DNA of 7,430 bases from assembly GCA_949739085.1 (NCBI GenBank), contig CATIYU010000357.1:1-7430 (forward strand), read 5' to 3'. This document shows positions 128 to 7,412 of the stretch, piece by piece; within the stretch, counting starts at the first letter, position 1, and each line of letters begins with the position of its first letter. A model generated the notes under the pieces. It made no database searches, had not been told where the DNA came from, and saw only the letters and a list, made by a program, of their open reading frames with translations. A program made the translations under genes and the position numbers. This DNA comes from an uncultured Eubacteriales bacterium. Its GTDB lineage: Bacteria > Bacillota_A > Clostridia > Oscillospirales > Oscillospiraceae.

Positions 128-829
128 TCACTCCTTAATCTTGAAAGTCTCTTTGAAGTCGTCCAGCAGCTTAGCCGCCAGGGCGGACTCCGTAATAGCA
201 AAGTAGTTGCCGCCCTTTGCATACTTGGACACGAATTTCCTCACATCCTCAGCCATGGATTCGTTCGCCTTCAGGAACGCCTTGACCACCTCGTCAAAGG
301 TGCCGATAATCTGCTCGGCAATCATCTTATCCTCCGCCGCTTCTGCCGCACGCTGCTTACTGCGGTGAGCATCGGGGTCGTCATCCGTGGTCGCCACGTT
401 GAAATACTTGAGCAAGAAGTAGCGGTCGGAATACGTCAGACCAGATCCAAAAGCCTGGGAGGCATCTGACTGCTGGCCAACCAGCGTCCAGCCCACCACC
501 ACCTTCTCGTCCGGGTTGTCGTTATTTACCCACGTCCAGGTCATGTCGGCACTGACCAGTACCTCGTTGACATTCTCTTCATAGATGCCGCCGCCTTTGG
601 TGGTCTTAGTCTTCTTGTAGGGATAGGGTTCGACCTTTGTCGTACCGCCGACGATGCCAGGAATCAGGGACAGATGGTACTTATCCATGAACACGGTGAT
701 CTTGGCCAGAATTTCCTCCTCGGACACATATGTATAGCCGTAACCCCGCTTGTTCTTCTTGATGACCTCAACCTGCTTTCTGATTTTGGCAAGTTTTTGA
801 TAGATGTTCAGTTGTGCCTGCTCGGACAT
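128..829 (-). CDS. erf: ERF-family single-strand annealing protein (phage recombinase)
   Basis: Protein of 233 residues, about the usual length for the ERF family (P22 Erf type). These proteins bind single-stranded DNA and anneal complementary strands during phage recombination and genome circularisation. Visible family features are the N-terminal helix IYQKLAKIRKQVEVIKKNK (9-27), the GYGYTYVSEEEILAKI segment (29-44) and the hallmark core at about 126-151: AFGSGLTYSDRYFLLKYF followed by an acidic DDD (149-151). The C-terminal third is helical and charged and likely mediates partner contacts. The start was set at 829 because AGGAGG (836-841) lies 6 bases upstream; an in-frame ATG at 880 would add 17 residues and has no good ribosome site. 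The SSB-like gene follows 6 bases downstream. A promoter (926-955) and a leader hairpin (861-885) precede it, so it appears to be transcribed separately from the MrpR-like gene. Confidence 0.92.
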   Translation of the reverse strand: MSEQAQLNIYQKLAKIRKQVEVIKKNKRGYGYTYVSEEEILAKITVFMDKYHLSLIPGIVGGTTKVEPYPYKKTKTTKGGGIYEENVNEVLVSADMTWTWVNNDNPDEKVVVGWTLVGQQSDASQAFGSGLTYSDRYFLLKYFNVATTDDDPDAHRSKQRAAEAAEDKMIAEQIIGTFDEVVKAFLKANESMAEDVRKFVSKYAKGGNYFAITESALAAKLLDDFKETFKIKE

Positions 830-835
830 GCTATA

Positions 836-1020: not shown

Positions 1021-1977
1021 TCAAATTGAAAAAGCCAGCTTCCAACGCTGATAGTCTATCATAAATTGTCTGGCACGCTGTCTCTGACGGATTTCAATTT
1101 TGTTGCGGTCCTTAATAACATAGTTCTTATCCCCCTCCGCCATGAGGCCGGTAGTCACGCCAGTAAAATTCACTGTCACACCGGCTCGTTCACGCTCATA
1201 CATCCGATAAAAAAGGCCAGACATCCAGATCCGATTGAAGCTCAGCTGCAGATCTGTTTTACCCTGTCTAATGGCATCCATCGAGAAGTGCGACATATTG
1301 GAGCGGAAATGGACTATCTTTGCCGTGCCACGGTATCCACGCATCAATGTGTCTCCAGGCATCCTGTCGCGACGGATCGGTTTGGCATAGTTCGGGTGTT
1401 TGTACAGGAAGCTTGTCAGCTCTACAGCGTTATGAAACGCTGGTAGCGCCTCCCGGTAGATAGGAACGCTGGTATCGCCATACTGTATATACATCTCTGC
1501 AAAGTTGACATCCGATGTCTTGACCTTTAGAACGTCGTCATCATGGATACCGCCATAGGCCATCCAATAGTAACAGCGGTAAAGATTATCCAGCATCTCA
1601 TTTTCCTCTTCGCTGAAAACCGCGTTCAGGTACTGCTGGAGGTGGAACGGACTGGACACCATCTGGTGCCGCACCTTCTCTAGTCCGGCAACGGTGATGT
1701 GGAGCATCCCGTCAATAGCGCCAGGAACCCCCGTCAGTATACACCATCTGACGTATTCCTTGAGTATAGTCAGCGACATACACTGACTGCTGGTGCGCAG
1801 CGCCACCACCTTGTCGATGACAGGCTGCAGTTCATTTGCAGACTTTGTACACAGGTCTGCCTGCCACGCTTTCTCAAAAGGCTCCATAGCATTAAACACA
1901 GTAGTCGCCACTTTGGCTGTCTTGATACTCTGCGTATAGTCCCCGATGAACTTGGCTTTCAACTCGTTATTGTACAT
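1021..1977 (-). CDS. MrpR-like phage regulator (catalytically degenerate tyrosine-recombinase fold)
   Basis: Protein of 318 residues. The N-terminal part (1-110) is helical, like the core-binding domain of tyrosine recombinases. From about 126 it follows the catalytic-domain pattern: LYRCYYWMAYGGIHDDDVL-VKTSDVNF (132-159) matches the usual LLLYTGLRISELLALKWSDID block, but the catalytic Arg of G-L-R is replaced (GGIH). A strand with VPIYREALPAF follows, then a RIWMSGLFYRMYERE helix (249-263) where active enzymes carry H-x-x-R. The C-terminal end (RQRARQFMIDYQRWKLAF) lacks an obvious nucleophile context. This matches my memory of the 'phage lytic cycle repressor MrpR' family, named from Bacillus phage SPbeta, in which an integrase fold serves as a DNA-binding repressor. 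The start at 1977 has AGGAGG (1984-1989) 6 bases upstream; an in-frame GTG at 2019 lacks proper spacing. A strong promoter (2193-2222) and long leader precede it and a clear terminator follows, so it is monocistronic. The alternative is a divergent but active integrase. Confidence 0.7.
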   Translation of the reverse strand: MYNNELKAKFIGDYTQSIKTAKVATTVFNAMEPFEKAWQADLCTKSANELQPVIDKVVALRTSSQCMSLTILKEYVRWCILTGVPGAIDGMLHITVAGLEKVRHQMVSSPFHLQQYLNAVFSEEENEMLDNLYRCYYWMAYGGIHDDDVLKVKTSDVNFAEMYIQYGDTSVPIYREALPAFHNAVELTSFLYKHPNYAKPIRRDRMPGDTLMRGYRGTAKIVHFRSNMSHFSMDAIRQGKTDLQLSFNRIWMSGLFYRMYERERAGVTVNFTGVTTGLMAEGDKNYVIKDRNKIEIRQRQRARQFMIDYQRWKLAFSI

Positions 1978-2254: not shown

Positions 2255-2578
2255 TTATGTCATGATGAGTCTGTGGGCTTCATGGCGCCTAGACGCCTTG
2301 GAATTGCCACAATAAAGTGTCAAGATCGTCCCCAGTAATGTAGATTCAGTGTCTATCTCTGCAAACCGCACTTCGTTGAAACAGATGCTGCTTACACCAG
2401 ATTTCAGGCAAACCTGGTTTGGATTTTCATAAATCAATACGGACTGGAAGTGAAGCCTCAGTTGGCATAGAGCGGCGTTTTTACAGCCAGTCTGATTCTC
2501 AGAGTAGTATGTGACCTGGTTGGGTGAGTTCCTTTCGCAGTACGCTTTCAACTCTCTGACAGATACCATTTTTTTCAT
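2255..2578 (-). CDS. Hypothetical protein, 107 residues, phage/mobile-element type
   Basis: I cannot name this family. The protein begins MKKMVSVRELKAYCERNSPNQVTYY, a helix then a strand. The middle and end (CQLRLHFQSVLIYENPNQVCLKSG, then ICFNEVRFAEIDTESTLLGTILTLYCGN) read as alternating beta strands of a compact globular domain with six Cys, not arranged as a clear zinc site. No helix-turn-helix, signal peptide or membrane segment is visible, so it is not a Cro-type partner of the repressor beyond. GGAGG (2591-2595) lies 12 bases upstream of the ATG, rather far. An alternative start at the fourth codon is even farther. No good leftward promoter is seen; the best -10-like match (TATAAC, 2618-2623) lacks a -35. 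The codon pattern and complete length suggest a real gene, but evidence is moderate. Confidence 0.6.
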   Translation of the reverse strand: MKKMVSVRELKAYCERNSPNQVTYYSENQTGCKNAALCQLRLHFQSVLIYENPNQVCLKSGVSSICFNEVRFAEIDTESTLLGTILTLYCGNSKASRRHEAHRLIMT

Positions 2579-2596: not shown

Positions 2597-2625
2597 TTGA
2601 TTTATGCGTCAGAGCGTGTTATACT
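2597..2625 (+). promoter_or_regulatory. Plus-strand promoter ahead of a gene-less stretch
   Basis: TTGATT (2597-2602) and TATACT (2620-2625) are separated by exactly 17 bases, with TGT directly upstream of the -10 (extended -10). Predicted transcript start is about 2632. The -35 sits against the ribosome site (2591-2595) of the leftward 107-residue gene, so polymerase bound here should interfere with that gene. Confidence 0.65.
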
Positions 2626-2631
2626 ACAGGC

Positions 2632-2743
2632 GGTCCTAGGTGAGTGGTGTCATCTGTGGCCCGCCCGCAATATATCTCTTGTGGGTGGTGGCGCACCGTC
2701 CTGCTGGCTTTCATTTTCTGCTGGGCGGTGCGTTGCGTTTTTT
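2632..2743 (+). ncRNA. Candidate small RNA, about 110 nt, or terminated leader of the repressor gene
   Basis: This stretch is bounded by an extended -10 promoter and an intrinsic terminator and holds no ORF with a ribosome site. Three local helices can be drawn in order: GGTGA/TCATC (2639-2643 with 2650-2654, one G-U); CCGCCCGCAA with TTGTGGGTGG (2661-2670 with 2679-2688, 10 pairs, two G-U, 8-base loop); and the terminator stem. It resembles no small RNA family that I recognise. It may act alone, act against the 5' end of the divergent 107-residue gene's mRNA, or be a second transcript for the repressor that is stopped early unless antiterminated. The promoter and terminator signals are direct observations; the function is unknown. 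Confidence 0.5.
2692..2743 (+). terminator. Intrinsic terminator just before the repressor promoter
   Basis: CGCACCGTCC (2692-2701) pairs with GGGCGGTGCG (2723-2732) in 10 base pairs including one G-U; 2691 and 2733 can add another wobble. The loop is 21 bases, longer than usual. Six Ts (2738-2743) follow after a 5-base gap. It points rightward only; the minus-strand side has no T-run. It ends one base before the repressor's -35 element, so it would separate the upstream transcript from the repressor gene. Confidence 0.6.
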
Positions 2744-2744
2744 A

Positions 2745-2773
2745 TTGACAGAAACTAAACTTTGTGCTATGGT
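2745..2773 (+). promoter_or_regulatory. Promoter of the CI/LexA-like repressor gene
   Basis: A perfect TTGACA (2745-2750), a 17-base spacer, and TATGGT (2768-2773) preceded by TGC (extended -10). Predicted transcript start is about 2780, giving a 90-base leader. Confidence 0.8.
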
Positions 2774-2794: not shown

Positions 2795-2826
2795 CTTACA
2801 CCGATTATGCTACCATAAATCAGCGC

Positions 2827-2840
2827 CCCTGTCAACAGGG
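2827..2840 (+). other. Palindrome CCCTGT-CA-ACAGGG in the repressor leader
   Basis: Six perfect base pairs around a 2-base centre, 33 bases before the repressor ATG. As DNA it has the dimensions of a 14-bp operator for a dimeric repressor; as RNA the 2-base loop is too tight unless the end pair opens. No T-run follows. I did not find a second copy in the window. Confidence 0.4.
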
Positions 2841-2872: not shown

Positions 2873-3679
2873 ATGGACTTTGGGCAGAGGCTAAAGAATC
2901 TGCGCCTTGAGAAGGGATATACACAGAAAGAACTCGGAGCTGCCGTAGGCGTATCAGTCGTTTCCGTCCGCTCTTGGGAACAGAATACAAAAAAACCGAC
3001 TATGGACGCGCTACTCTCCCTTGGCCGGACGTTCAGTGTTTCAATGGATACCCTGATGGACTTTCAGCTTGGTGATATACCAAATTCAGGTTTGGTATTG
3101 TCTCCAGCGGAGCGGAGCCTGTTGGAAAACTATCAGATCCTCGATGCTCATGGGAGGAAAGCTGTAGAGACTTTATGCGCCATTGAAGCTGAGCGTATCT
3201 CCATCCAGCAGGAACCCTTACGGAAGAAAAAGATTATCAACCTAGAAGAAGCGAGGGCGGCTTCGAGATATATCCCACGCTACACCTCCCCATCCGCCGC
3301 AGGTATTGCCGCTCCGCTTGAGGGAAACGACTTTGAGATGATCCTGGTGGATGATACCGTACCAGAGGATGCCGACTATGCGGTGCGCATCTCTGGCGAC
3401 AGTATGGAGCCGTATATTGCGGACGGGGATATGGTCTATGTACAAAAAGACGCCGAACTATCCATTGGAGATGTCGGCATCTTCTGTGTCAACGGGGCTA
3501 TGTATTGCAAGCAATACTACCTGGATGACGATGGGAACCTTGTCCTGGTATCCGCCAACCCGGACTTGAGGGATTCAAATGTTTATGTGCCCGCTGATAG
3601 TGGGTATTCAGTAACGGTTTGCGGCAAGGTACTCCTTGGCCGTCGGATTGAACTGCCCGACTACCTGTTCGAGGATTGA
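2873..3679 (+). CDS. CI/LexA-like repressor, XRE helix-turn-helix plus S24 self-cleaving domain
   Basis: Protein of 268 residues. Residues 4-63 form an XRE/HTH_3 domain (FGQRLKNLRLEKGYTQKELG, then VGVSVVSVRSWEQ as the recognition part). A linker with a basic KKKI patch (118-121) leads to a peptidase S24 domain. The scissile Ala-Gly is A143-G144 in SPSAAGIAAP, the nucleophile is S177 in SGDSMEP, and the general base is K213 in MYCKQYY, about 36 residues on, as in LexA and lambda CI. All parts for RecA-stimulated self-cleavage are present, so it should bind operators until DNA damage inactivates it. The start at 2873 has GGAGG (2860-2864) 8 bases upstream; a TTG at 2858 is in frame but overlaps that site. 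It is the only plus-strand gene, has its own promoter (2745-2773), and ends at a terminator shared with the convergent operon. A host LexA is unlikely given the XRE-type N terminus. Confidence 0.92.
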   Translation: MDFGQRLKNLRLEKGYTQKELGAAVGVSVVSVRSWEQNTKKPTMDALLSLGRTFSVSMDTLMDFQLGDIPNSGLVLSPAERSLLENYQILDAHGRKAVETLCAIEAERISIQQEPLRKKKIINLEEARAASRYIPRYTSPSAAGIAAPLEGNDFEMILVDDTVPEDADYAVRISGDSMEPYIADGDMVYVQKDAELSIGDVGIFCVNGAMYCKQYYLDDDGNLVLVSANPDLRDSNVYVPADSGYSVTVCGKVLLGRRIELPDYLFED

Positions 3680-5980: not shown

Positions 5981-6198
5981 TATACCACCCCCAATTTCTT
6001 CTCCACATCGAACTTGGTCTCAAGCTCCTTTGGAGAACGAGCCCTCCCGAGTTTCTTGAATGTGCCGTCAACCAGCTCATACAGGAAGTAATAATCTCGG
6101 GAGGATTCTTTACTTGTCAGGATGAAAAGAAGCTCGTGCTTGGTGTTATAGTATCCAACCCAAACTCGCTCGCCCTTTGGATATTTGGGGGTACTCAT
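5977..6198 (-). CDS. Small conserved phage protein, 73 residues, in the cysteine desulfurase operon
   Basis: Sequence starts MSTPKYPKGERVWVGYYNTKHELLFILTSK and continues SSRDYYFLYELVDGTFKKLGRARSPKELETKF. It reads as a four-strand beta sheet with a final helix; aromatic residues are frequent. I recall similar short proteins in clostridial prophages but no function for them. The ATG (6196-6198) overlaps the cysteine desulfurase stop in ATGA and its own stop overlaps the next start in TTGA, so three proteins are made in tandem. There is only a weak GGGA ahead of the ATG, so translation probably depends on the upstream gene. A role as a partner of the neighbouring enzyme or DNA-binding protein is possible from context only. 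Confidence 0.75.
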   Translation of the reverse strand: MSTPKYPKGERVWVGYYNTKHELLFILTSKESSRDYYFLYELVDGTFKKLGRARSPKELETKFDVEKKLGVVY

Positions 6199-7352
6199 AT
6201 TTTCCCATGGGAGCGCAGCACATCAATAAAGGATGCCATGATGTGCGCAGCATCTGTAACCTCGTCTACCGTGTTCATTCTGGAGAACGAAACCCGAATA
6301 GAGCTTCTCGCTTCTTCTGTGGTAAGCCCCATCGCTGTGAGCACATGACTTGGCTTAGACTCATGGCTTCGACAGGCAGAGCCAGCGGACACATAGATAT
6401 CCATATTGTCCAGCATCAGAATGAGGGACTCATTGTCAACACCGTCGATTCGGAGATTGATGGTCTTGCCGGGAGACAGGAGGGATGCCCCGTTGATATG
6501 TACGGTATCGCCGCCGAGATGACTCTGGAGCTCTGTCACGAACCGTTGCTTGAGCATGGAGACGGTCGTTCTGTCCTCATTCTGCTGGGCACTGGCAATC
6601 TCGCACGCCCGTCCAAACCCAACGATACCGGCCACGTTTTCCGTTCCGCCCCGCAGCCCAAACTCCTGGTCGTGTCCGCCGCAGATGAGAGGAGACAGGA
6701 TTGAGATGTCCTTGGCATAAAGTGCGCCTGTGCCTTTAGGGCCATGGATTTTGTGGGCCGAGATGGATAGAAAATCACAGCCGATGCTGGTGGTGTCGAT
6801 GGGGTGACACCCGGCGGCCTGTACACAGTCCGTATGGAACAGAACGCCGTGCTTCAGACAGATGCTCCCAATATCGCTTATCGGATTCTCTACGCCGGTT
6901 TCATTGTTGACATACATGACAGACACCAACCCGGTATCTGCCCGTAGAGCCCGCTCAACAGCCGCAGCAGGCACGGTCCCATTGCCGAGTACGGGAATAT
7001 ACTCGACATCAAATCCGTCTTTCATAAGGCTCTCTGCGGCTCTGAGAACACTGTCGTGCTCCACGGCAGACACCAGGATATGCGTGCATTCGATGCGCTT
7101 GAGATAGTCCCTCACGCCGTGGAACACAAGATTATTTGCCTCGCTTCCGCCGGATGTGAAAATGATGCTGTTTGTATCTGCGCCGATGAACCGAGCCACC
7201 CGTGCTCGTGCTTCCTGAATCGCCTCGTTGGCCGCTCGTCCAAATCTGTAGGGCGTACCGGCGTTTCCGTATTGAGTCGTCAGGTACGGCATCATAGATT
7301 CTAAGACCCTTGGGTCAATCGGGGTCGTAGCTGCTGCATCAAGATAAATCAT
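6195..7352 (-). CDS. Cysteine desulfurase, NifS/IscS/DndA-like, PLP-dependent
   Basis: Protein of 385 residues, the normal length. It should remove sulfur from L-cysteine, giving alanine and a protein-bound persulfide for transfer to Fe-S clusters, tRNA thiolation or DNA phosphorothioation. Visible are YLDAAATTPIDP (3-14), TSGGSEANN with the cofactor-phosphate loop (66-74), H99 in SAVEHDS, NNETG (149-153), D175 and Q178 in HTDCVQAAG, the PLP lysine K201 in SAHKIHGPKG, RGGTENV (234-240), and the catalytic C327 in SAGSACRSH followed by a C-terminal SSIRVSFSRMNT. The Cys lies in the longer loop of the class I (NifS/IscS) type. Nothing is missing, so it should be active. The start at 7352 has AAGGAGG (7359-7365) 6 bases upstream; an in-frame ATG at 7403 lies across the probable promoter. 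It overlaps the next gene by 4 bases, tying it to the phage operon. No sulfur acceptor, DndBCDE or Ssp protein is in view, so the pathway is open. Confidence 0.95.
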   Translation of the reverse strand: MIYLDAAATTPIDPRVLESMMPYLTTQYGNAGTPYRFGRAANEAIQEARARVARFIGADTNSIIFTSGGSEANNLVFHGVRDYLKRIECTHILVSAVEHDSVLRAAESLMKDGFDVEYIPVLGNGTVPAAAVERALRADTGLVSVMYVNNETGVENPISDIGSICLKHGVLFHTDCVQAAGCHPIDTTSIGCDFLSISAHKIHGPKGTGALYAKDISILSPLICGGHDQEFGLRGGTENVAGIVGFGRACEIASAQQNEDRTTVSMLKQRFVTELQSHLGGDTVHINGASLLSPGKTINLRIDGVDNESLILMLDNMDIYVSAGSACRSHESKPSHVLTAMGLTTEEARSSIRVSFSRMNTVDEVTDAAHIMASFIDVLRSHGKI

Positions 7353-7377
7353 TGACGCCCTCCTTGCAGTTTTATAA

Positions 7378-7386
7378 ATTGTAGCA
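7378..7386 (-). promoter_or_regulatory. Probable extended -10 promoter for the cysteine desulfurase operon
   Basis: On the minus strand TACAAT (7378-7383) is preceded by TGC (7384-7386), an extended -10. The hexamer 17 bases further upstream (TGCTTG) matches the -35 consensus poorly, so either the extended -10 suffices, an activator is needed, or the operon is also read from genes beyond the right edge. Predicted start is about 7371, about 20 bases before the start codon. Confidence 0.5.
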
Positions 7387-7412
7387 TAAGAACACCCCAT
7401 CAAGCACAGGAG

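Follow-up and report, generated by a model that had tools for sequence, protein, structure and literature searches.

The window, by which we mean the whole stretch of 7,430 nucleotides analysed here, comes from a temperate phage, or a prophage, of Clostridia, relatives of its repressor having been found in IMG/VR viral contigs and in MAGs (titled Flavonifractor sp., Ruminococcus sp., Clostridia bacterium, Eubacteriales bacterium and Oscillospiraceae bacterium). Its switch region contains a repressor gene and a leftward early promoter that would serve an operon of a first early gene, an MrpR-like gene and an ERF recombinase gene (Table 1). A + strand cassette made of a promoter, hairpins and an intrinsic terminator separates the first early gene from the repressor promoter, and the transcript predicted from the leftward early promoter is antisense through the entire cassette. 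This position opposite the leader of the leftward early operon, absent from the first-pass annotation of the region, is, we think, the key piece of the anatomy.

Proteins encoded by the first early gene form one family in the 23 loci aligned, an alignment that includes L048, L052 and L018, which have no intact cassette, and L015, where it is decayed (L numbers designate related loci). The 107-residue protein of the window matches no Pfam or PHROG family. Its fold is predicted with a pLDDT of 89.5 and has no confident structural match, the best in the PDB being the haem-utilisation protein ChuX (E 0.025, TM 0.51); a weak likeness to haem-utilisation proteins such as ChuX/HemS can be seen. Relatives of the MrpR-like gene were found in all five loci compared (L105, L145, L048, L018 and L052). 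MrpR is the SPbeta master repressor according to the available excerpt of PMC10516654, and here an MrpR-like protein is encoded within the early operon, the phage having an S24-type repressor besides. The MrpR-like and ERF genes are separated by an inverted repeat (986-1006) that is T-rich on both sides and has the look of a bidirectional terminator. Adjoining the phage genes, an aminotransferase class V protein, cysteine-desulfurase-like, is encoded at 6195-7403 (-), and a gene that looks similar by eye stands at the end of L105.

Table 1. Predicted features of the cassette, the switch and the leftward early operon in the window
Feature	Position	Strand	Details
ERF recombinase gene	128-832	-	Leftward early operon, after the MrpR-like gene
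MrpR N-terminal-domain protein gene	1021-1977	-	Second gene of the leftward early operon
First early gene, 107-aa protein	2255-2578	-	Small mixed alpha/beta protein; Shine-Dalgarno GGAGG at 2594-2590 (-)
Small-RNA promoter	2597-2625	+	-35 TTGATT (2597-2602), 17-base spacer, TG and -10 TATACT (2620-2625)
Hairpin SL1	2632-2661	+	MFE fold; 11 pairs, loop GUGGUG
Hairpin SL2	2662-2687	+	MFE fold; 9 pairs, tenth pair 2661/2688 possible
SL3 and intrinsic terminator	2688-2743	+	Stem 2688-2736, 16 pairs, loop of 15; G, then six T (T-run 2738-2743)
Repressor promoter	2745-2773	+	TTGACA-17-TATGGT; pattern scan, counterparts read in relatives
Leftward early promoter	2807-2835	-	TTGACA-17-TAGCAT; pattern scan, faces the repressor promoter
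Repressor gene	2873-3679	+	HTH_3 and Peptidase_S24 domain matches

The RNA predicted from the cassette, whose start is presumed to lie near 2632, would span 112 nt (2632-2743). Its MFE fold consists of three consecutive hairpins, SL1, SL2 and SL3, at -54.9 kcal/mol against a mean of -35.1 in shuffled sequences (z -5.8; none of 200 shuffles as good). The promoter lies where the first-pass annotation had placed it, and so do the three hairpins, which nevertheless differ in size from their first description: the 'small hairpin' SL1 turns out to be an 11-pair stem, the fold gives nine of the ten pairs announced for SL2 (2661-2688), and the terminator has its stem and six Ts, but with 14 pairs plus 2 instead of 10. 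A pattern scan for terminators, limited to loops of 8, missed it because its loop exceeds that size. A2744 is the sole base between the T-run and the repressor -35 TTGACA, which starts at 2745, as had been described. At the other end, the Shine-Dalgarno sequence of the first early gene is a few bases from the small-RNA -35. Nine of the 12 hexamer letters match in the small-RNA promoter; since promoter-like matches are common in the window (18 found in the pattern scan, 9.2 expected), such a match in a single sequence is weak alone, and the weight of the promoter call is carried by its conservation in relatives.

Cassettes were gathered from the sequences that lie upstream of related repressor genes, or upstream of the related early gene. 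We counted the cassette, beside related early genes, in 22 tabulated loci (the window included) and in L145, which was found after the table was drawn up and is counted apart. L008, L046 and L049 are identical to listed cassettes, L016 is one base off L010, L031 is the same contig as L036, and the near-identical L035 and L036 are both rows of the table; two pattern matches in unrelated places (L028 and L032) were dropped. An extended -10 (TGn) is present in 22 of 22 tabulated cassettes, and the -10 is TATACT in 21, L009 having TACACT, as does L145; this hexamer served to locate most cassettes, so that its constancy is partly by construction. The -35, the spacing and the hairpins were not search criteria for most cassettes; the best -35 starts with TTG in all 22 tabulated cassettes, and the best spacer is 17 in 21 of them. 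Cassettes of relatives end in a hairpin and a T-rich run (the longest run was tabulated, which in L003 and L010 is not the terminal one), the SL3 region often holding two or more hairpins. The predicted RNAs range from 110 to 200 nt, with three hairpins in the window and often four or more in relatives. A common operator in TATACTACA was considered and rejected: the same -10 also stands before a tRNA-Arg gene in L092 and before a different phage gene in L122, and therefore looks like that of an ordinary strong promoter. In L122, at about 1500-1900, a gene of the L029/L035 phage that appears MazF/PemK-like by eye has its own TGTTATACTAC promoter downstream of the early gene.

The surroundings of the cassette are shared as well. 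In 19 of 19 loci tested, it is flanked on one side by a leftward TTGACA promoter and on the other by the start of a gene of the same small-protein family; the leftward TTGACA, on which the search was anchored, is found in these 19 loci and also in L105 and L145, and a TAnnnT stands 17 bases beyond it in 18 of the 19 (not in L007). Among IMG/VR repressor relatives with an E value of 2e-71 or better, 19 of 23 loci have the cassette, duplicate contigs included, and it is absent from the distant repressor relatives L057-L063. Among 394 genomes of one bacterial order, two carry the promoter pattern, and one of the two had been known before; 197 genomes yielded 25 repressor-like matches, and the cassette promoter adjoins a single one of these, the known one. 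The cassette is present or absent cleanly as one unit, as L052-L054 and L045 illustrate: in L048 and L052-L054 there is no cassette, and the early gene is directly beside the switch. L018 has no such small-RNA promoter, and in L015 the cassette is decayed, the promoter spacer being lost and the terminator part carrying an insert. The ends of this insert (L015, 3584-3869) are inverted repeats (GGAAATCAATTTT/AAAATTGATTTCC), like those of a small transposable element.

Two relatives, L105 and L145, keep the cassette promoter, the hairpins, the T-run, the first early gene, the MrpR-like gene and the leftward promoter, while their whole records (28.6 kb and 104.4 kb, possibly fragments) contain no match to the repressor alignment A1 or to Peptidase_S24. 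As positive controls, A1 finds relatives in 24 of 197 genomes in a separate search, and Peptidase_S24 was found in 11 of 14 controls. This suggests that the cassette follows the early operon rather than the repressor of the window; L105 and L145 possibly have a repressor of another kind. Their early promoter regions contain GAACAAATGTTC-like sequences (L105, about 2665-2690 (-); L145, upstream of its early gene), which we take to resemble the Gram-positive LexA box and which suggest that the early operon of these two phages is under direct SOS control.

Is the RNA itself what selection maintains? Compensatory changes were counted in SL1 and SL2. In SL1, aligned as a 12+6+12 build over eight relatives chosen for gapless alignment (A3, including the window, with L016 as a separate row), a choice that favours a good fit and drops other cassettes, 90.6% of cells are paired, and 21 cells are changed on both sides against 8.5 in shuffles that ignore the relatedness of the rows (none of 500 as high); the covariation score is 0.673 against 0.330 (none of 500 as high), and seven of the 12 pairs show two-sided changes, a number matched by 17 of 500 shuffles. 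For SL2, over ten relatives selected in the same way and compared with shuffles of the same kind (A4, an 8+4+8 build that excludes the window's own SL2 with its longer loop), 96.3% of cells are paired, the score is 0.642 against 0.320 (none of 500 as high), and five of eight pairs show two-sided changes (reached by 12 of 500 shuffles). Sliding the partner abolishes the signal in both hairpins. Two MAFFT alignments, A2 and A7, left SL1 unaligned across distant members and were excluded from the pair counts. The preservation of hairpins by compensatory changes, on which the first-pass annotation had staked its proposal, holds for SL1 and SL2 in these gapless rows.

The exceptions to Watson-Crick pairing are polarised. 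SL1 has 19 G-U cells, no A-C cell and nine others, SL2 has 16, one and two, respectively, and the sum of 35 G-U against one A-C on the + strand indicates that the + strand is the folded RNA under selection. In all 19 loci the + strand has a lower MFE than the - strand, and in 16 it also has the more extreme z-score, the exceptions being L014, L041 and L047, the last of which shows no excess folding energy (z -1.3). Chance hairpins are ruled out by the folding z-score, by folding in multiple loci and by the compensatory changes in SL1 and SL2. A hidden small protein was also rejected, because the two open frames of the window hit stops in relatives and the length differences are not multiples of three; no reading frame is conserved in the nine cassettes translated, in agreement with the earlier statement that the cassette holds no ORF.

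A covariance model built on the close group (R1) recovered none of 14 held-out intact cassettes at E values up to 10. It matched three other places, namely the decayed copy in L015, a site of L050 that lies outside the cassette, and L063; over 147 genomes it had a single match, a training relative. The failure on held-out cassettes implies that the cassette sequence changes fast, and that distant homology rests on place, promoter and build. As read from its sequence, the cassette has its own promoter, a strong one of the sigma-A type with an extended -10, and an intrinsic terminator around a non-coding structured transcript. The proposal of a candidate new phage small RNA gains from the conservation of promoter and hairpins, from the compensatory changes and from the strand polarity, and the cassette is very probably a real phage small RNA gene at the lysis/lysogeny switch.

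What might such an RNA do? A regulatory role in the choice between lysis and lysogeny, which the first-pass annotation had put forward, is plausible. Over its whole length the small RNA is complementary to the leader at the 5' end of the leftward early message, and in 19 of 19 loci, as well as in L105 and L145, it lies opposite a phage message with which it could pair. The reading that we prefer, at somewhat under an even chance, is that of a countertranscript directed against this leader, which would be made in the lysogen and would lower leaky early expression. We favour it because complementarity is given by position, because the module appears and disappears as one piece, and because the sequence drifts while the build is kept; divergence of the sequence under a constant build, together with presence or absence as one unit, fits an RNA that targets its own complement. 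In the lysogen, the small RNA would be transcribed while the leftward early promoter is silent; its G/U-rich loops would initiate pairing with early transcripts, whether leaky ones or those of a superinfecting relative. Pairing would lower early expression, for instance via RNase III cleavage of the duplex. On induction, leftward RNA polymerase would displace the small-RNA promoter and swamp the small RNA. Direct blocking of translation is not expected, the 5' end of the small RNA being about 38 bases from the Shine-Dalgarno sequence of the early gene, and a switch that masks this sequence finds no support, its mean predicted openness over 19 loci being 0.36 when free, 0.30 once the small RNA is bound and 0.33 if the cassette is left out. 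Two observations weigh against the countertranscript: a cis-antisense model does not call for the loop features discussed below (a GUGG/UGGU bias and a concerted difference between L035 and L044), and the relatives L048 and L052-L054 manage without the cassette.

No Rfam family matches the window at the gathering score, and the first-pass annotation likewise named no small RNA family with this sequence; in 15 related loci, tRNA is the only match at that score. At E values up to 10, only Chloroflexi-1, RT-19, Trp_leader and P18 appear, all far below gathering, and the Rfam C4 antisense RNA has no match; nor did we find a description of the cassette RNA in the open-access literature searched. 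Phage antisense RNAs are nevertheless established, and those treated in the available excerpts of two sources (PMC12197685, PMC13397905) include sar, OOP, aQ, c4 and STnc6030. The sar RNA of P22 is described there as a short RNA antisense to the mRNA of the antirepressor ant, which prevents its translation and is tuned to lysogeny. The cassette RNA is likewise short, phage-encoded and opposite a phage message; unlike sar as presented in these excerpts, it starts well away from the ribosome-binding site (the same 38 bases or so), has three or more hairpins, and lies upstream of an early gene that, in contrast to ant, matches no named family. In the excerpt of PMC12197685, c4 of P1/P7 is a structured immunity RNA thought to pair through loops, OOP and aQ of lambda are antisense RNAs that set the lysis/lysogeny balance, OOP via RNase III, and STnc6030 of prophage BTP1 is an antisense small RNA that limits superinfection. 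The targets differ: c4 acts around the ant ribosome-binding site, OOP and aQ act on cII and Q, and STnc6030 is antisense to the tailspike gene, while the cassette RNA is opposite an early leader, downstream of the early promoter and ahead of the first early gene. That the cassette RNA works like any of these can be proposed at most by analogy.

The main rival to the countertranscript is a trans-acting RNA whose loops show GUGG/UGGU to a shared partner, the antisense position being incidental and the gene an accessory one expressed in lysogeny. The partner could be an RNA-binding protein, sequestered as by a CsrB-type decoy (a decoy being a possibility that the first-pass annotation had raised), or a host or phage RNA, and the loop motif pattern indeed hints at a partner. 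Of 21 cassettes, 13 have GUGG in the SL1 loop, where shuffles that ignore the relatedness of the rows give a mean of 1.4 (maximum 6 in 2000); overall, the motif is present in 22 of 87 loops against a null mean of 4.8 (maximum 12 in 300) obtained in the same way. However, eight of the 21 SL1 loops are without GUGG, the rows are related, the excess outside the first loop is small (10 against a null maximum of 9), and the loops are generally G/U-rich, GTGT, TGTT and TGTG being likewise common. A loop motif is repeated over several hairpins of one RNA in L004, L017, L035 and L044, while the window has GUGG in one loop only. L044 and its relative L035 have near-identical switches, but three loops of the former carry GTGGTTG and three of the latter GTGCTTG, and in L017 one 14-mer is duplicated in two loops, which none of 5000 shuffles reproduced; triple 7-mers, in contrast, arise in 2-3% of shuffles (139 of 5000 for L044, 110 of 5000 for L035). 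CsrB/RsmZ-type decoy RNAs have several hairpins repeating one loop motif, the CsrA sites being GGA; the cassette motif is GUGG/UGGU instead, and its repeats occur in some relatives only. No likely trans target emerged in the places searched: the L035 motif was sought among the collected loci, the only extra match to the L017 loop motif in its genome is antisense in a coding region, the complement of the L004 loop motif, CAACCACA, is found in that phage record (29.8 kb) only on the cassette's own antisense strand, and CAACCACA is matched 12 times in the L044 record, where a control pattern is matched 11 times. A trans-acting RNA is, on balance, possible and rather unlikely.

Three further scenarios give the RNA less of a role, or another one. 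The act of transcription may matter instead of its product, if rightward transcription from the cassette runs into leaky leftward transcription while the terminator shields the repressor promoter. In keeping with this, the small-RNA promoter points towards the leftward early promoter in all 19 loci tested and is the most constant part of the cassette, but the compensatory changes in SL1 and SL2 and the strand polarity are then left unexplained, and we think it improbable. Alternatively, the functional RNA could be the leftward leader, for example as a put-like antitermination site, with a fortuitous promoter on the + strand. This region would be transcribed leftwards as a leader in any case, and the - strand, too, folds better than shuffles in most loci; yet the G-U to A-C imbalance, the lower MFE of the + strand in 19 of 19 loci, and a promoter and T-run both on the + strand make such a leader very improbable. 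Finally, the first-pass annotation had also envisaged an upstream transcript of the repressor, stopped at a terminator unless an antiterminator opens it. The cassette is co-directional with the repressor and ends adjoining its promoter, but the repressor has a promoter of its own; a repressor lies downstream in the same direction in the window and not in L105 and L145, which keep the cassette in records (possibly fragments) without a match to the repressor alignment or Peptidase_S24. We find this last scenario scarcely credible.

A bolder proposal goes beyond the countertranscript. The cassettes would form a fast-evolving RNA family of Clostridia phages, whose loops serve as interchangeable recognition heads (GUGG/UGGU), altered in concert so as to follow their partner, and lysogens would use the RNA as a type-specific immunity determinant. 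We regard it as doubtful. If it were true, phages with different loops would be heteroimmune at the RNA level, even without a protein repressor, as in L105 and L145, whose early operon may be under SOS control.

The phage small RNAs described so far come mostly from enterobacterial phages, as far as the available excerpts of PMC12197685 and PMC13397905 go. The build of the cassette RNA, for which Rfam has no family at the gathering score, is conserved across phages of gut Clostridia, at their lysis/lysogeny switch. The early leader, opposite which it lies, is a target open to direct testing, and related phages that have the cassette or do without it exist as natural variants. If it is an immunity RNA, it would add to lysogeny control a layer of RNA, one that persists in relatives where no such repressor was found.
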